Assembly: GCA_000023185.1 (NCBI GenBank)
Contig: CP001624.1
Location: 596,974 to 660,973, forward strand
Length of the DNA stretch: 64,000 bases
Direction of reading: 5' to 3'
Source of the DNA: Rhizobium leguminosarum bv. trifolii WSM1325
Lineage (GTDB): Bacteria; Pseudomonadota; Alphaproteobacteria; Rhizobiales; Rhizobiaceae
The position numbers and the translations under genes are program-made. This document shows, piece after piece, positions 3,752 to 22,503 of this stretch. Within the stretch, counting starts at the first letter, position 1, and every line of letters starts with the position of its first letter. Below the pieces are notes generated by a model. That model worked only from the letters and a program-made list of their open reading frames with translations, was not told where the DNA came from and did no database searches.

Positions 3752-4982
3752 GTCTGATGTTGCTCCTGCGTCCGGCCAGCGCTGGCTGACTATTATCGGC
3801 ATCGGCGAAGATGGTCCAGAAGGGCTGGGCGAGGAGGCGAAGAGGCTGATCGCCACCGCGCCCGCCGTCTTCGGTGGCGTGCGCCACCACGCACTTGCTG
3901 CCTCGCTGATCACAGGCGAAAGGCTTTCCTGGCAGAGCCCGTTCGAGCGCTCGGTCGACGCCATCCTCGAAAGGCGTGGCACGCCTGTTGTCGTGCTCGC
4001 CTCTGGCGATCCCTTCCTCTATGGTGTCGGCGCAACGCTCTCCCGCCATGTGGCGGCGGAAGAGATGCGCAGCATTCCCGCACCCTCGGCCTTCAGCCTT
4101 GCCGCCTCCCGCCTTGGCTGGCCGCTACAGGAGGTTGCAACGATCTCGCTGCATGGACGGCCGATCGATCTGATCCGGCCGCACCTGCACTCCGGACGGC
4201 GCATCGTCGCGCTGACCTCGGACGAGAAGGGGCCCGGCGATCTGGCTGCGCTGCTGACTGCTGCTGGCTTCGGTCAGTCGCAACTTACCGTGCTCGAGGC
4301 GCTTGGCGGCGCTCGGGAACGGCAGAGAAGCGTCCTGGCCGCGGATTTCGACCTGCTGGACGTCGATCCTCTGAATGTCTGCGCCGTCGATATCGCGGCA
4401 GGGGAGGGGGCTCGCATCCTGCCGTTTGCCGCCGGGCTCGAAGATGAGCTGTTCGAGCATGACGGACAGATCACCAAACGCGAAATCCGGGCGATGACGC
4501 TTTCGGCGCTCGCGCCGCGTCATGGCGAACGGCTCTGGGATATCGGCGCGGGCTCGGGATCAATCGGTATCGAATGGATGCTGGCCGATCCGTCACTGAA
4601 GGCGATCGCCGTCGAGCAGTCGCCGGAACGGGCTGCACGTATCGCACGCAACGCATCCGCTTTCGGCGTGCCGCATCTTGCCGTCGTCGAAGGTGCTGCG
4701 CCCGATGCGCTTAGGGGCCTCGCGGCGCCGGATGTGATCTTCCTCGGCGGCGGCGGTAGCGAGCCGGGTGTTGTCGATACTGCGATTGCCGCACTGAAGC
4801 GGGGAGGGCGGCTCGTTGCCAATGCCGTGACGCTGGAGATGGAGGCGGTCCTGCTGGCCGAACATGGCAAGCGCGGCGGTTTCCTCACGCGGATCGAAAT
4901 ATCGCGCGCCCAGCCGATCGGCGGCATGAGCGGCTGGCGGCCGGCGATGCCGGTGACGCAGTGGCGCTGGACGAAAGGATGA
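3750..4982 (+). CDS. cobL: CobL, precorrin-6Y C5,15-methyltransferase (decarboxylating)
   Basis: Bifunctional enzyme that methylates C-5 and C-15 and decarboxylates the ring C acetate side chain. Start chosen at 3750 ([12 protein letters not shown]); the longer open frame upstream is antisense to cobK. 410 aa, with a CbiE-like N-terminal methylase ([28 protein letters not shown]) and a CbiT-like C-terminal Rossmann methylase ([17 protein letters not shown] near residues 255-271). Fusion of both domains is normal for the aerobic pathway. No room exists for a separate promoter between cobK and cobL, so expression must start inside cobK or read through from cobJ. Confidence 0.95.
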
Positions 4983-16245: not shown

Positions 16246-17095
16246 ATGTACATCGTTGTTGGCGGGACGGGCCACGTCGGCTCCGCCGTGGCGCAGACGC
16301 TGCTCGACGAAGGCGAAGCCGTCACGATCGTTACTCGAAATTCTGACAAGGCCGGTGCATGGCGACAGCGGGGCGCGGAGGTCGCCGTCGTCGACGTCCA
16401 CGACGTGACGTCGCTGCCGTCGTGGGAAGCGGGCCTTCCTCCTGAACCCGAGCGCTGACATATCGAGCGATACGGATCGGGAGGAACGCGAGAACGTGCG
16501 CTGCATGCTCGAGGCGATCGAAGGATCTGGGCTGGAGAAGGTGGTGGCGCAATCGACCATGGGCGCGCAGCCAGGCGAGAAATGCGGCGATCTCAGTGTT
16601 CTTTACGAACTGGAAGTCGGCCTGAGGAACCAGCCGGTTCCTGCCAGTGTCATCCGCGCAGCCTACTACTTCAGTAACTGGGGTACGATGCTGGGGGCCG
16701 TCACGAGGGACGGGGTGCTAGCGACCATGCTCCCTGCAGACCTCAAGCTCCCAATGGTCGCGCCGGAGGATCTAGGAAAGGTGGCGGCGCGGATCCTGCA
16801 GGAGCCGATCGAACGGATCGGCATATACCCCGTCGAGGGGCCGCAACGGTACTCCCCCAACGATGTCGCCGCAGCCTTCGCTGCCACCCTTGGCCGGGCC
16901 GTTCGCGTCGACGTGATCCCGCGCGAAAACTGGGAAGACGCATACCGCGGTTTGGGCTTTTCCGACGCGGCGGCTCACTCATATGCGAGGATGACGGCTC
17001 TCACCGTCGATGGTCCCGAATATCCCGAGGATGCTATTCGAGGATCGACCTCGCTGCAGGCCTACATAGACAAGCTTGTTCGCGACCGATCCTAA
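16246..17095 (+). pseudogene. NmrA-like NAD(P)-binding protein, frameshifted
   Basis: Two frames together make one NmrA/atypical SDR protein. Frame one (from ATG 16246) gives MYIVVGGTGHVGSAVAQTLL with the GGTGHVG nucleotide motif and runs to HDVTSL near 16416. Frame two then gives RRGKRAFLLNPSADIS and continues through GSGLEKVVAQST and RAAYYFSNWG to the stop at 17095. The join near 16416 needs a shift, and a few residues expected before RRGKRAF are absent, consistent with a short deletion. Without a full Rossmann core either half should be inactive. A translated C-terminal piece from ATG 16496 is possible but not convincing. Confidence 0.75.
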
Positions 17096-17415: not shown

Positions 17416-19419
17416 ATGTTTTTTGATTGGCCGGTGCGCTTGCGCGCCTTGGCTTTCAGGGGTGAGAACCGAGATGCAACGGACATCCGGCAGATGCTGA
17501 CGAACAGGCTATGCCTGCTCGGAAGACCGCGATTGCTGGCGGCGGGGAGGGAGCTCCCCTTGCCGGAGAAGTCGTATTTTCTCCTTGCCATGCTCGCCGC
17601 CGAACCCAATGTCGAACTCGACCGCGAAACCGTCAGGCGGCAGCTCTGGCAATCGGAGCTGCCGGAAAAGCGGGCCGGCAGCCTGCGCCAGCTGCTGGCG
17701 CGCATCGAACTGAGCATTCCCGCCGGCCTCCCACCGCTGCTTGCCGCGACCCGAACCCATATCGGCCTTGCCGATGGCTGGGAGGTCGACGTTCATATCC
17801 TGAAACAGAAAGGGCCACTCGCACCCGAAGACGGCGGCCTGCTGAACGGCGAATTTCTCGACGGCGTCAAATCGCCGACGCAGGGCGCCGAGGACTGGCT
17901 GACCTTTGAGCGCCAGCGTGTCGACGAATTGCGCTCCGCCCATCTCACCCGGCTGATCGAGACATCGGAAGACAGATCGGATGACGAGCAGGTCACACTC
18001 GCCAGGCGCCTGCTGGAACTCGACCCTGCCAGCGAGACGGCCTATCGCGCCTTGATGCGCACCTATGTCCGGATGAACGATCCGGCAGCGGCGCGTCAGG
18101 CCTATCTGAAGTGCAAAAGCCAGCTGAAGGACGACTTCGACACCGAGCCGGAAGAAAGCACCACCGCTCTTGCCCGCGAGCTCAACCTGGTGCCGGCGGC
18201 ACAGGCGACGTCAGCCCAGCCGGCGCCTGATCTGTCCATCAATTCGGTCGGCCAACCGCGCATCATCATCCTGCCGCCGGAAAGCATCTTCACCGATCCG
18301 CTGATGGAGCGCGTCGGCAGGGCGCTTCTTGAAGACGTCACCATCGGCCTCAGCCAGCAGCGGGGCTTCAAGGTGATCGCGGCGCATACCAGCCTGGAGA
18401 TCCTCAGCCGTTCGATCGATCCGTCGCGTGCTGTGCCCGGTCCGCTCGACCTGCGCTTCGACTATGCGGTCTACGTCACCATCCAGGGCCGCGACGAGGA
18501 TGTTTATGCCACTTGCCGTCTGACGCGGACGACGACGTCGGAGGTGATCTGGGCCGTCGAACTGCCGCTGGTCATGCAGAAGATCAGCGAATCCTTCGCG
18601 CATCTGACGCGGCGGATCGTCTCCTCGCTCGCCGACACGATCGAGCGTCACGAACTGGCGATGCCGATCGGCGACGCGCCGCCGTCAGCCTACCGTCTCT
18701 ACCTGGAAGGCAAGCGGCTGATCGCCCACACCGACCTGCAGCATCTGCGCCAGGCACGCAAATGGTTCAAATCCTCGCTCAATCGTTATGAACATTTCTC
18801 TGCCGCCCATGCCGGCATGTCGCGCGCGCTCGGCATGGAATGGCTGATCCGCGGCATGCGCGACAAGGAACTGCTCGACGAGGCGAACGGCGCTGCCCGG
18901 CAGGCGCAGCAGTCCGACCCGAACAGCGGCCGGGCTTACCGCGAGCTCGGCTTCGTGGCGCTTTATCGCCGTCGTTTCGACGAAAGCCTGGAATATTTTC
19001 AGCAGGCCCAGGATCTGAATCCCAACGATGCCGACATCCTCGCCGACTATGCCGACGCGCTTTCCCATGATGGCGATTTCGATCGAGCGCTGGAGCTCAG
19101 CCGCGCTGCCTTCAAACTCAATCCGCTGCCGCCGGACTATTATTACTGGAACCTCGGCGGCATCCACTTCATGCGCGAAGAGTATGAAATGGCGATCGAG
19201 GCGCTGGAACCGGTGAAGACGAAGCAGGCGACAGCCCGCCTGCTCGCTGCCTCGCATGCCATGGCGGGCGAGACGGGCAAGGCCAGGAACTACGCCAGGG
19301 TGGTGCTGGAAAACTTCCCCGATTTCCGCAGTGAGGACATCCGTCATTTCGTCCCCGATCGCGATCCCGCCTATACGGAACCGCTCATACAGGGCCTGCA
19401 ACTTGCCGGACTTCCCTGA
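17416..19419 (+). CDS. SARP/BTAD-type transcriptional regulator with C-terminal TPR repeats
   Basis: 667 aa if started at ATG 17416; ATG 17494 (MLTNRLCLLGRPRLL) is an equally good start and begins at the conserved domain. Order: winged-helix OmpR-like DNA-binding region (to about residue 125), bacterial transcriptional activation domain (ARRLLELDPASETAYRALMR; AYLKCKSQLKDDFDTEPEE, residues about 190-250), a middle segment like the adenylate-cyclase-associated TolB-like region (PRIIILPPESIFTDPLMERV), then TPR repeats (GRAYRELGFVALYRRRFDES; ADILADYADALSHDGDFDRA). It immediately precedes the YcaO/TfuA peptide locus on the same strand and is the best candidate for its regulator; SARP proteins often control secondary metabolism. 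Confidence 0.8.
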   Translation: MFFDWPVRLRALAFRGENRDATDIRQMLTNRLCLLGRPRLLAAGRELPLPEKSYFLLAMLAAEPNVELDRETVRRQLWQSELPEKRAGSLRQLLARIELSIPAGLPPLLAATRTHIGLADGWEVDVHILKQKGPLAPEDGGLLNGEFLDGVKSPTQGAEDWLTFERQRVDELRSAHLTRLIETSEDRSDDEQVTLARRLLELDPASETAYRALMRTYVRMNDPAAARQAYLKCKSQLKDDFDTEPEESTTALARELNLVPAAQATSAQPAPDLSINSVGQPRIIILPPESIFTDPLMERVGRALLEDVTIGLSQQRGFKVIAAHTSLEILSRSIDPSRAVPGPLDLRFDYAVYVTIQGRDEDVYATCRLTRTTTSEVIWAVELPLVMQKISESFAHLTRRIVSSLADTIERHELAMPIGDAPPSAYRLYLEGKRLIAHTDLQHLRQARKWFKSSLNRYEHFSAAHAGMSRALGMEWLIRGMRDKELLDEANGAARQAQQSDPNSGRAYRELGFVALYRRRFDESLEYFQQAQDLNPNDADILADYADALSHDGDFDRALELSRAAFKLNPLPPDYYYWNLGGIHFMREEYEMAIEALEPVKTKQATARLLAASHAMAGETGKARNYARVVLENFPDFRSEDIRHFVPDRDPAYTEPLIQGLQLAGLP

Positions 19420-19439
19420 TGCACCGCCTTTTAACGAAG

Positions 19440-19459
19440 CCTGTAACGCTTAAATGACG
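19440..19459 (+). repeat. Direct repeat, left copy, flanking the YcaO/TfuA locus
   Basis: Starts with CCTGTAACGCTT and matches 18 of 20 bases with the copy at 21667-21686 (differences A/G and G/A). It lies 85 bases upstream of the candidate precursor gene. Confidence 0.6.
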
Positions 19460-19524
19460 CAGGCAATGTTTCCCTCCGATGGTTAACGGCAGCAAGGCGC
19501 TGTCTAACCAATCGGAGATGAAAC

Positions 19525-19668
19525 ATGAAGACGAATGCTGACACCACCGCAGCTCAGACACAGTCACTGCGCTTCTCTGCAGCCGCCAAGGCAGCCATGA
19601 AGCAGGACGAGCTCAACGTTTCCGCCAATGCGCTCGAGAGCCTGACGCATGCGCTGAGGTTCCGCTAG
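19525..19668 (+). CDS. Candidate RiPP precursor peptide (47 aa)
   Basis: Small gene ATG 19525 to TAG 19668 with a good ribosome site (GGAGATG, 5-9 bases upstream). The peptide begins MKTNADTTAAQTQSLRFSAA and ends NALESLTHALRFR. It has no cysteine, and Ser/Thr and an acidic middle (MKQDELNVS) suggest leader plus short core. It lies 13 bases before a YcaO gene that is coupled to tfuA, the arrangement expected for a thioamide- or azoline-forming ribosomal peptide pathway. The LRF motif appears twice (residues 15-17 and C-terminal 44-46). No known precursor family was recognised; function is inferred from position. Confidence 0.65.
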   Translation: MKTNADTTAAQTQSLRFSAAAKAAMKQDELNVSANALESLTHALRFR

Positions 19669-19681
19669 GGAACAGATCGGT

Positions 19682-20944
19682 ATGTCTGCTTTCACCGACC
19701 TTGAAACGCTTGCCGGTGACCTTAAACGATCATCGGCCGGTGTCAGCGACTACCATGACCGCGCCGTCACGCCGGCGCAGACCTTGGCGGCCATCAGGCC
19801 GCATCTGCGCGAATTCGGCATTACGCGCGTCGGCCTCCTGACTGCACTCGACGTTTTGAACATCCCCGTCGCCTTCGCAACGAGGCCGAACAGCCATACG
19901 CTCTCGGTCTTTCAGGGCAAGGGTATCGACAACGATGCCGCCATGGCCTCGGCGGCGATGGAGGCGGTCGAGACGCGGATCGCCGAAATTGCCCCCAACG
20001 ACATGACGCAGGCAACGATCGAGAACATGCGGGCGGAGCATGCCGCGATGATCGATCTCGACAATGTCGCACGCTGCGCACCCGACGAAATCGGACGAGC
20101 TCCCATCCCCTGGTGCTCCGGGCTCGACATTCTTTCCGGCAGCAGCGTCTTCGTGCCCTGGTGGCTCGTCGGTCTCGACCATCGCGGCGAGAGGCCGCCC
20201 GGCTTCGAGCAGTCGAGCGATGGGCTCGCCTCCGGCAACACCCCGTCCGAAGCGGTCCTGCATGGGCTTTGCGAGCTGGTGGAGCGCGACGCCTGGGCCC
20301 TGACCCAGCTGAAGTCGCCCGAGCGCCTGAAGGAGAGCCGCATCAACCCCGCCTCCTTCGGCGATGCGGTCATAGATGTCATGACCGACCGGATCACCCG
20401 TGCCGGCATGAAACTGCTGCTGCTCGACATGACGACGGATATCGGCGTTCCCGCTTTTCTGGCCGTCATCATGCCAGGCAACATTTCAGACCGTGTCGAC
20501 GCGCGCTGGTCGCATGTCTGCGGTGGCTGCGGCTGCCACCCCGATCCGGTGCGCGCCGCGCTGCGCGCCATTACCGAAGCGGCGCAGAGCCGGCTCACCG
20601 CGATTGCCGGCAGCCGCGACGATTTCTCGCCGCGCATCTATCAGCGGCTCGACAGGAGTGCGGCGATGCAGCAGGTAGTCGAACTGTGCGAGGGCGACGG
20701 CCGGATGCGCTCGTTCCACGCCCGCGATCGCCGCCCGGCGACGATCCAGGACACCATCGGCCATATTGCCGACCGGCTGGCGGCAACCGGCATCGAGCAG
20801 ATCGTCGTCGTGCCGTTTCCGCACCCGGCCCTGCCGATCTCCGTCGTCAGGGTGATCGTGCCGGGACTGGAGGTCGATATCTCAGGCCAATATATCCAGC
20901 TCGGCCTGCGCGCCGTCAACACCATGAGAGGAGCCGAATCATGA
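19682..20944 (+). CDS. YcaO-domain ATP-dependent cyclodehydratase/thioamidation enzyme
   Basis: 420-aa YcaO protein, which activates peptide backbone amides with ATP. The ATP/Mg-binding motifs are all visible: SAAMEAVE at residues 90-97 (S-x3-E-x2-E), SEAVLHGLCELVERDAW at 189-205 (E-x7-E-x2-ERD) and AITEAAQSRL at 297-306 (E-x2-Q). A Cys-rich stretch VCGGCGCHPDP lies at 279-289. Its stop overlaps the tfuA start (ATGA), and the 47-aa peptide gene precedes it by 13 bases. YcaO-TfuA pairs are known from trifolitoxin (R. leguminosarum) and from thioamidated RiPPs and methanogen Mcr. No exporter or protease is adjacent. Confidence 0.9.
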   Translation: MSAFTDLETLAGDLKRSSAGVSDYHDRAVTPAQTLAAIRPHLREFGITRVGLLTALDVLNIPVAFATRPNSHTLSVFQGKGIDNDAAMASAAMEAVETRIAEIAPNDMTQATIENMRAEHAAMIDLDNVARCAPDEIGRAPIPWCSGLDILSGSSVFVPWWLVGLDHRGERPPGFEQSSDGLASGNTPSEAVLHGLCELVERDAWALTQLKSPERLKESRINPASFGDAVIDVMTDRITRAGMKLLLLDMTTDIGVPAFLAVIMPGNISDRVDARWSHVCGGCGCHPDPVRAALRAITEAAQSRLTAIAGSRDDFSPRIYQRLDRSAAMQQVVELCEGDGRMRSFHARDRRPATIQDTIGHIADRLAATGIEQIVVVPFPHPALPISVVRVIVPGLEVDISGQYIQLGLRAVNTMRGAES

Positions 20945-21684
20945 AGGTGCTGTTCGTCGGCCCGAGCCTTGGCAGCGATCTTGCCGCAGCAAGAGCCATG
21001 TCCTCCCGCATCGATTTCCGGCCGCCGGCGGCTGCCGGCGACATCCTGAAGGCCGTTCAGGACGGCGCCACCGCGATCGGTCTCGTCGACGGCTATTTCG
21101 GCGATCTGCCCTCGGTCTGGCACAAGGAAATACTTTACGCACTCGAACATGATGTCGCCGTTGCCGGCGGCGCCAGCATGGGCGCGCTGCGGGCAGCCGA
21201 ATGCGCCCCCTTCGGCATGGTCGGGCTCGGCTCGATCTTCGAAGATTACGAGTCAGGGCGGCTGCTCGACGACGAGGCCGTCGCGCTTGTGCATGCGCCG
21301 CAGGAGCTCGGCTGGCTGCCGCTTTCCGTACCCTGGGTCGATTTCGAGCCGACCATCGATGCGCTTCACGCCGTTGGCGAAATTTCGCTCGCCGAGCGCA
21401 AGAAACTCCTGCTTGCCGGCCGTTTCCTGCATTTCTCCGAGCGCACCTATGCGAAGGTGGCCGACGAGTGCCATTTCCGCAAGCCGCGCCGCGACCACAT
21501 CCTCGCCGCCATCCGGGGGAACCGCGTCGAGCGCAAGCGGGGCGACGCGTTATTGGTGCTGGAATGGCTGTGCCTGGACAAATTCCGCCCTATCAACCGT
21601 GACTGGCGCTTTGCCGCGACCTCGCACTGGGAACTCCTGCACGCCGAAGTCACGCGCAATGCGGTTCCTGTAACGCTTGAATAA
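20941..21684 (+). CDS. tfuA: TfuA-like protein, YcaO partner
   Basis: 247 aa. Core TfuA motifs: VLFVGPSL at residues 3-10, GYFGDLPSVWHKEILYAL at 51-68 and AGGASMGALRAAECAPFGM at 75-93, followed by IFEDYESGRLLDDEAVALVH. TfuA proteins assist YcaO enzymes in thioamide formation, probably supplying or channelling sulfur. ATG 20941 overlaps the YcaO stop, so the two are translationally coupled. The last codons carry the right copy of the flanking direct repeat. Confidence 0.9.
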   Translation: MKVLFVGPSLGSDLAAARAMSSRIDFRPPAAAGDILKAVQDGATAIGLVDGYFGDLPSVWHKEILYALEHDVAVAGGASMGALRAAECAPFGMVGLGSIFEDYESGRLLDDEAVALVHAPQELGWLPLSVPWVDFEPTIDALHAVGEISLAERKKLLLAGRFLHFSERTYAKVADECHFRKPRRDHILAAIRGNRVERKRGDALLVLEWLCLDKFRPINRDWRFAATSHWELLHAEVTRNAVPVTLE

Positions 21685-21686
21685 CG
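21667..21686 (+). repeat. Direct repeat, right copy, at the end of tfuA
   Basis: CCTGTAACGCTTGAATAACG; the first 12 bases are identical to 19440-19451 and 18 of 20 match overall. It covers the last codons and stop of tfuA. Confidence 0.6.
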
Positions 21687-21750: not shown

Positions 21751-22017
21751 ATGTTTGAACAACACAACGAAGCTACCGGCAGCGAATACGCAAGGATCTT
21801 CCGGCTGCTGTCGGCAGCCAAGGAGGAGGCTGAAAAGCTTCAGCTGCGCAATCTGATGCACCTGACGAACATGGCGCTGCTGCAGGTCGTCATCGATTGG
21901 GACGGCATAGATCCCGACAGGGAGCTTGACGTCAATCTCGAGAAGCTGGTCGGCAGCAAGGCCAAGATCGCAATGAAGGATGCCAGCGAGAATCTAATCC
22001 TGATCGATCGCCATTGA
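21751..22017 (+). CDS. Small conserved-looking protein of unknown function (88 aa)
   Basis: Not recognised. Begins MFEQHNEATGSEYARIF after an AGAGGGCGGGAACG ribosome site. Predicted largely helical: SAAKEEAEKLQLRNLMHLTN and LMHLTNMALLQVVIDW, then a charged C-terminal half (DVNLEKLVGSKAKIAMKD). It lies 66 bases after tfuA on the same strand and could belong to the peptide locus or be independent. No signal peptide or membrane segment. Confidence 0.6.
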   Translation: MFEQHNEATGSEYARIFRLLSAAKEEAEKLQLRNLMHLTNMALLQVVIDWDGIDPDRELDVNLEKLVGSKAKIAMKDASENLILIDRH

Positions 22018-22098: not shown

Positions 22099-22503
22099 CT
22101 ATTCGGCCGCTTCGGTGTCCAGCTGTTCGGTGTTGGCAATCGCCTGGACGAGCTTCAGAATCTTCTTGCGAAGCGCTTCGTTCTTGATCGAAAAGAACGC
22201 CGCGTTGAGAAGGACGCCTTCGCGCGAAATAACGAATTCCTCGCTGGGAGCGGGGTTGTCGTTGGCATTATCAGGGGTCGACAGGTCGTCGAAGAACGTC
22301 CTGACATCAACCTTCAGCGCGCCGGCGATTTCGACCAGCATGCTGGCGGAAACGCGGTTGGAGCCCTTTTCGTATTTCTGGATCTGCTGGAACGTTACGC
22401 CAACACGATCGCCCAGTTCCGTCTGAGAAACTTTCCTCAACAGACGCTGGATGCGGATCGTCTTTCCGACGTGAACATCGACGGAATGCGGTTCTTCTTT
22501 CAT
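22099..22503 (-). CDS. XRE-family helix-turn-helix regulator
   Basis: 134-aa protein with an N-terminal Cro/C1-type HTH: VGKTIRIQRLLRKVSQTELG and DRVGVTFQQIQKYEKGSNRV, residues about 12-50, then a short helical tail with PSEEFVISREGVLLNAAF. Such stand-alone XRE proteins are frequent in rhizobia. Ribosome site AAGGGAAATAAG before ATG 22503. It is convergent with the RiPP-side gene and its target is not evident. Confidence 0.85.
   Translation of the reverse strand: MKEEPHSVDVHVGKTIRIQRLLRKVSQTELGDRVGVTFQQIQKYEKGSNRVSASMLVEIAGALKVDVRTFFDDLSTPDNANDNPAPSEEFVISREGVLLNAAFFSIKNEALRKKILKLVQAIANTEQLDTEAAE

Follow-up and report, generated by a model that had tools for sequence, protein, structure and literature searches.

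A candidate YcaO-TfuA thioamidation locus with a BTAD/TPR regulator and a short putative precursor peptide in Rhizobium leguminosarum

In Rhizobium leguminosarum bv. trifolii WSM1325, the last 64,000 nucleotides of plasmid pR132502 (the window; contig C3, 596974-660973) carry at positions 19525-21684 a gene for a 47-residue (47-aa) peptide followed by ycaO and tfuA. The assignment agrees with a tblastn match of 100% identity over 420 aa. With a confidence of roughly two in three, we consider the locus to be an activator-controlled YcaO-TfuA thioamidation system of the ribosomally synthesized and post-translationally modified peptide (RiPP) type, in which the 47-aa peptide would represent a new precursor family. 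The evidence for this lies in the gene content of the locus, its conservation, selection on the peptide, the co-occurrence of its genes and a pair of direct-repeat boxes.

The peptide gene and its enzymes

The initial annotation of this region, made from the letters alone, described a compact locus of three genes. Its details were exact: the peptide open reading frame (ORF) runs from an ATG at 19525 to a TAG stop at 19666-19668, lacks Cys and is preceded by a GGAG ribosome site at 19514-19517; a gap of 13 bases (19669-19681) separates it from the ycaO ATG at 19682; and an ATGA joins the ycaO stop (20942-20944) to the ATG of tfuA (20941), which ends at 21684. The compact three-gene picture did not hold, and the unit instead comprises six genes including regulators. 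Overlooked were a regulator with BTAD and tetratricopeptide repeat (TPR) domains, two direct-repeat boxes, an 88-aa gene and a conserved helix-turn-helix (HTH) gene. The features are as follows, with counts referring to the near relatives described below:

17434-19419, plus strand: BTAD regulator of the Streptomyces antibiotic regulatory protein (SARP) type; Pfam BTAD 4.4e-14, TPRs; RefSeq start GTG at 17434
19430-19459, plus strand: putative regulatory box 1; TTTAACG, TGTAACG and AATGACG with periods of 12 and 11 bp; core TGTAACGCTTAAATGACG at 19442-19459
19514-19517, plus strand: GGAG ribosome site of the peptide gene; present in 16/16 aligned upstream regions
19525-19668, plus strand: 47-aa candidate precursor peptide, ending in NALESLTHALRFR
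19682-20944, plus strand: YcaO; Pfam YcaO 1.7e-68
20941-21684, plus strand: TfuA; Pfam TfuA 3e-37
21669-21686, plus strand: putative regulatory box 2; TGTAACG CTTG AATAACG; overlaps the tfuA end and precedes the 88-aa gene
21751-22017, plus strand: 88-aa helical protein, family not recognized; present at 44/44 loci
22099-22503, minus strand: small HTH (HTH_3) regulator; Pfam HTH_3 1.6e-12; present at 44/44 loci

Conservation of the peptide frame lies far beyond chance, which at the sequence level points firmly to a real gene. Six YcaO peptide patterns, which reach close relatives only, were scanned against 84,980 species genomes; 75 stretches matched, and 46 of them encode a relative, in 44 distinct loci. 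The peptide is found directly upstream of ycaO at every one of the 44, ending in HA(L/V)(R/K)FR, and R16, S18, A20, A21, K26, Q27, N35, H42, A43, F46 and R47 are identical across all 45 peptide sequences. The initial annotation had expected a gene kept beside ycaO-tfuA and under purifying selection, and both expectations are borne out. Whole-peptide pairwise dN/dS (nonsynonymous over synonymous rate) is ~0.18 (464/990 pairs with usable dS), with 0.55 in the N-terminal 15 columns (436 pairs) versus 0.094 in the remaining 32 (476 pairs), figures that are descriptive because the pairs are not independent. It had also suggested looking for a conserved leader followed by a variable core; the window family shows the reverse, a variable N-terminus and a constrained C-terminus.

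A profile search of 5.8 billion proteins yielded 39 peptide relatives of 42-71 aa, a length span set by the search itself. The peptide occurs in 9/394 genomes of the same family, including 5/8 of the same genus, and the regulator, ycaO, tfuA, 88-aa and HTH genes are all kept in these nine (the window; L135, L140, L145 and L146; L189-L192). Among plasmid records it was found in 115/72,556, one copy each. In L189, a divergent window-type peptide (4755-4910) ends in THAMRYQ, and a second box-like repeat lies between it and ycaO.

Adjacent ycaO and tfuA genes with ATP-binding motifs, and a small conserved precursor gene beside them, are the marks of a YcaO-TfuA thioamidated RiPP, and the locus has both. 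The three ATP-binding motifs reported for the window YcaO are confirmed, each aligning with its counterpart in M. jannaschii MJ1094 (6pe3/6peu): SAAMEAVE with SACMEAIE, ELVERDAW with EIIERDAW and EAAQSR with EVAQSR. The first motif reads SxxExxET in the window, L042 and L043, and SxxExxER in the paralogue L002 and MJ1094. The closest solved structures are MJ1094 for YcaO (3.7e-33) and 6xp8 for TfuA (2.4e-28). The window YcaO passes the general NCBIfam YcaO kinase-domain model; it scores higher with the McrA-thioamidation YcaO model (202.5 bits) than with the SagD azoline model (113.7 bits, cut-off 219.25), both scores lying under the models' own cut-offs. Within 6 kb of ycaO, no E1-like, ThiF or RiPP recognition element (RRE) partner is annotated. 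The same holds for an exporter, protease or immunity gene, in agreement with the initial annotation, in a gene table that may be incomplete.

RefSeq annotates the peptide (hypothetical protein WP_012763602.1), ycaO, tfuA and, upstream, a 'BTAD domain-containing putative transcriptional regulator'. The annotated neighbors of the locus are L-aspartate oxidase, nadC, BTAD, 88-aa, HTH, amidohydrolase, IclR, short-chain dehydrogenase/reductase (SDR) and L-fuconate dehydratase genes. No coding sequence is listed between nadC and the regulator; by eye, an SDR/NmrA-like gene is split there into ORFs 16246-16458 and 16496-17095, the larger of which is matched in only one of the 44 relatives (L009), and the split gene (16246-17095) is possibly decaying. 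In WSM1325 and T24, but not in TA1, the tfuA frame contains no stop over 641 codons and reads through ycaO (20113-21684), where overlong gene calls are possible. 'Toxin' is a label given in some annotations to this TfuA, and in some genomes to the regulator (records such as CP053208.2; proteins P0079 and P0126); nothing in this analysis supports it.

Direct repeats and the regulator

A direct repeat with an 11-bp period precedes both the peptide gene and the 88-aa gene, and no other such site is present in the 7.4-Mb genome. The sequence CCTGTAACGCTTRAATRACG occurs twice in the window at up to 3 mismatches, where 0.01 occurrences are expected, and the pattern TGTAACGN5ATRACG has two exact matches in the genome, both at the locus, with none for the reversed-pattern control. 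Allowing up to 5 mismatches, the box is found before the peptide in 42/44 near relatives and at the tfuA end in 44/44; among 16 aligned loci, conservation declines around it. The looser pattern TGTMACGN6TMACG gives five matches in the own genome versus one in the reversed-pattern control, and two of the five sit at the two YcaO loci of the genome. The remaining three (C2, C4 and C5) are treated as chance, since no ORF of at least 60 aa around them matches the precursor, 88-aa, regulator, YcaO, TfuA or HTH references, a check that a shorter precursor would escape.

From its sequence, the regulator has the BTAD domain that defines a SARP-type activator, and relatives bear the source name of SARP-family activators. 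It comprises an N-terminal helix-strand region, whose order in an AlphaFold2 (AF2) model (pLDDT 83.5) is compatible with a winged helix, the BTAD domain, a central region (TolB-like in the source names of relatives) and a predicted C-terminal TPR solenoid resembling TPR superhelices. For the possible winged helix, Pfam Trans_reg_C matches 4/44 relatives at the surveyed loci, all weakly (best 0.0063). Heptamer direct repeats with an 11-bp period upstream of putative target genes are likewise characteristic of SARPs; the architecture of the boxes matches the classical site, in which heptamer repeats are spaced 11 bp apart according to passages of a review (PMC10972967). The 88-aa protein is modeled as a three-helix bundle (pLDDT 79); it has no Pfam or NCBIfam match, and a fold search with the model returned nothing at E 0.001 or better.

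All 44 near-relative loci hold the BTAD, 88-aa and HTH genes. In the three most distant (L042-L044), none of the flanking amidohydrolase, IclR and SDR genes is present; a few other gaps fall at the ends of L022, L029 and L041.

Regulator-linked loci across the order

Beyond the close relatives, the locus appears to belong to a widespread group of loci with their own regulator gene and matching repeat sites, as the sequences suggest. TfuA is encoded in 62/397 genomes of the order, and 72 of the 75 listed TfuA places were surveyed, omitting the window and two contig-end fragments of one genome. A relative of the window regulator, as defined by a phmmer match, lies upstream on the same strand at 41/72, hereafter the regulator-linked loci. 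In a quick YcaO tree of the 72 loci and the window, with several long branches, a 99% (SH-aLRT) branch separates 42 regulator-linked and 7 other rows from the remaining 24, none of which is regulator-linked; as judged from this tree, linkage to the regulator characterizes a single YcaO clade. Among the 24 rows, L082, L084, L085 and L091 show a regulator-like match that is weaker and lies on the opposite strand. As for the 7 unlinked rows within the clade, L101, L109 and L121 carry two ycaO genes with the regulator between them, the far ycaO being in the tree, L103 and L148 are cut by a contig end, and L127 and L137 are without a regulator. L101, L109 and L121 show the order ycaO, regulator, long precursor-like ORF, ycaO, tfuA. 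In wider sampling, the regulator was found upstream at 3/24 further TfuA places of a class-wide sample, the three belonging to a single family, and at 0/3 new places in a phylum sample. In L164 and L165 of the class-wide sample, a regulator-like gene is present at another position of the stretch.

An HTH relative is found in 25/41 regulator-linked loci versus 1/31 others (L127), and an 88-aa-type gene on the same strand in 26/41 versus 2/31 (L103 and L127); the exceptions fall in the regulator-linked YcaO clade. A scan without a preset sequence found 11-bp repeats in other regulator-linked loci, and with the consensus TGYMACG-N4-TGYMACG (maximum 14) the 130 bp at the tfuA end score at least 13/14 in 25/47 loci of the regulator-linked type versus 0/25 other TfuA loci. 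When two further regions are included, such a box is present in 28/41 regulator-linked loci (shuffle mean 0.05), and other repeat periods from 8 to 14 reach at most 3 of the 41.

The own genome has a second locus of regulator, peptide, YcaO, TfuA and small protein on C1 near 3207448 (L002, L113), which encodes a different 70-aa peptide, has an HTH gene located upstream of its regulator and carries a box of its own, TGTCACGCTTTTTTCACG. A profile begun from this 70-aa peptide found a precursor-like ORF at 30/41 regulator-linked loci and 0/31 others, the latter count being the informative part since the profile was grown on the same loci. A window-type precursor lies at 4 more of the 41, and the other 7 (L114, L115, L117, L134, L139, L143 and L144) have other ORFs or no clear precursor. 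Unlike the window family, these precursors have an N-terminal stretch in common, of the kind MAKxVVLGLxGExGLWLVDLEAGTV, and C-terminal parts that differ, with tandem repeats in several (RSDAASHHYFPNRG in L106, TRSDAASHIFYG in L132, GGLFERSE in L119). QSQAGV repeats stand behind a different N-terminus in L101. Pfam and NCBIfam gave no convincing family for one 88-aa-type protein and eight candidate precursors from relatives. For the L132 precursor, a DUF3993 match exceeds its Pfam cut-off (25.7 vs 22.4 bits), but it does so within tandem repeats, with no single stretch passing, and was rejected; the remaining matches are weak or repeat-driven.

Alternative explanations and comparison with known systems

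How these parts may work together, from regulator-box binding and substrate identity to the thioamide chemistry and site and the fate of the product, we infer from sequence. The BTAD/TPR regulator would bind the heptamer repeats, spaced 11 bp apart, that precede the peptide gene and the 88-aa gene, and would activate both genes. Once the 47-aa peptide is produced, YcaO would use ATP to activate its backbone at one or more amides, and TfuA would help sulfide delivery. The resulting thioamide (+16 Da) would lie in the C-terminal, conserved portion of the peptide, perhaps close to the N..(L/I)(T/V)HA(L/V)(R/K)FR end. Cleavage and export, if any, would fall to enzymes encoded elsewhere, or the peptide may stay intracellular.

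Several observations weigh against this proposal. The window-type peptide is without the N-terminal stretch common to 30/41 regulator-linked loci and its conserved part is C-terminal, so that leader and core are not assignable. L043 and L044 are without a recognizable box before the peptide gene, 13/41 loci are without a box at 13/14 or better, the window's own boxes score just 11 and 12 of 14, and the consensus was derived from the very loci that were scored, several of them close relatives. The regulator matches of L104 and L117 are short and weak. Across 44 regulators (those of the 41 linked loci plus L101, L109 and L121), Pfam recognizes BTAD in just 29 and TPR_2 in 33. Finally, the loci are not phylogenetically independent.

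The strongest alternative, itself on the unlikely side, is that the product is a secreted, bacteriocin-like antibacterial peptide whose export, cleavage and immunity genes lie elsewhere. TfuA has been implicated in trifolitoxin production (in passages of PMC4603692), the locus is present in the trifolitoxin producer T24, and its occurrence in just 5/8 sampled genomes of the genus looks accessory-like. Relatives' precursors also have tandem repeats, as in thiovarsolin precursors. The C-terminal part of the peptide is strongly constrained (dN/dS 0.09) rather than diversified, however, and no immunity or transport gene is annotated nearby.

Alternatively, the modified peptide could act as an intracellular signal, tuning the BTAD regulator by binding to its TPR domain, in a closed sensing circuit with no secreted product; we regard this as improbable. 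TPR solenoids are peptide-binding scaffolds, and in RRNPP proteins, which are peptide-sensing TPR regulators, the TPR domain binds the cognate peptide. The TPR fold predicted for the regulator would suit such a role, as would the tie between one TPR regulator family and one YcaO clade, the two regulator genes of the unit, the second box ahead of a small protein without a recognized family, and the lack of exporter, protease and immunity genes among those annotated nearby. Cluster-situated activators, though, are normal for secreted metabolites too, and the tandem core repeats of relatives resemble multi-copy product release. More speculative still is the idea that the thioamidated peptide serves as internal ligand of a SARP-type TPR activator in a self-contained, non-secreted RiPP signaling circuit that has spread across the Hyphomicrobiales and whose precursor type has switched between leader-plus-repeats and short, C-terminally constrained forms.

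We also doubt that the 47-aa protein is an accessory factor while YcaO and TfuA modify a larger cellular protein, as in methyl-coenzyme M reductase (MCR) or uL16. Thioamidation of proteins by YcaO is known (PMC13063428, in part), and the 47-aa protein is conserved like a protein partner, unlike a fast-changing precursor. Against this, the E. coli uL16-type YcaO does not depend on TfuA and no small ORF lies close to it, as described in portions of that paper, and tandem-repeat precursors occupy the same gene position in relatives. That YcaO instead forms azolines, or alters the backbone at Ser/Thr residues of the peptide in some other way, without making thioamides, is very unlikely: the YcaO ATP-binding motifs are present and the invariant S18 and the mostly-Thr position 41 could cyclize, but TfuA adjoins, no cyclodehydratase partner is annotated nearby, Cys is lacking, and the YcaO scores higher with the McrA thioamidation model than with SagD.

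Should the activator-controlled thioamidation reading be correct, it would define a recognizable Gram-negative YcaO-TfuA subclass of one enzyme clade, one regulator family and one DNA box, together with a catalogue of candidate precursors, tandem-repeat ones included. Through the regulator and box, expression could be brought under control, the lack of which often hinders product discovery, and the locus would offer a concrete entry to the role of TfuA in rhizobia, a question raised by the link of tfuA to trifolitoxin production.

Searches of the open-licence literature turned up no earlier account of the box, of these precursors or of the link to the regulator. TfuA-associated YcaOs were separated from azoline formers in a 2015 survey, their substrates being unknown at that time (passages of PMC4603692). 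Rhizobium is listed among the dominant proteobacterial TfuA-related cluster families in a 2021 survey (PMC8120280, in part), so the ycaO-tfuA pair is not new as such; the words 'BTAD', 'tetratricopeptide' and 'repeat' do not appear in its main text.

The initial annotation took YcaO-TfuA pairs as established for thioamidation, which agrees with thiovarsolin, where the YcaO-TfuA pair together with the precursor is enough to yield a thioamidated product in Streptomyces (PMC6511847, in part). The var cluster of Streptomyces varsoviensis likewise has the three genes adjacent, and its precursor family ranges from non-repeating to five repeats according to sections of the same report. Unlike the rhizobial locus, these systems are actinobacterial, with extra enzymes in several clusters and an APR core as far as those sections describe, whereas here no further modifying enzyme is annotated nearby, the precursors are different, and a BTAD/TPR regulator and 11-bp boxes are present. 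The McrA-thioamidating YcaO-TfuA of methanogens provides, through its archaeal members, the closest solved structures for both enzymes, but its substrate is a large protein and the window scores below the equivalog cut-offs. The initial annotation further placed YcaO-TfuA pairs in the trifolitoxin locus, which is inaccurate: the tfx cluster of T24 is described as tfxABCDEFG on the chromosome (excerpts of PMC9670871), and T24, of the same genus, has its orthologue of the present locus, with the peptide and both boxes, on a plasmid. The present tfuA may be the gene linked to trifolitoxin in 1996, but the T24 plasmid pRA_T24_1 alone has two TfuA genes, near 1,206,000 (this locus) and 670,000. The tfxABCDEFG set is not among the annotated neighbors of the locus, no tfx sequence having been searched. 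Lastly, SARP activators of Streptomyces share the BTAD domain, TPRs in some, and heptamer repeats classically 11 bp apart (passages of PMC10972967), whereas the regulator described here is Gram-negative, has no Pfam match to NB-ARC, and is associated with the sequence TGYMACG and with YcaO-TfuA loci.

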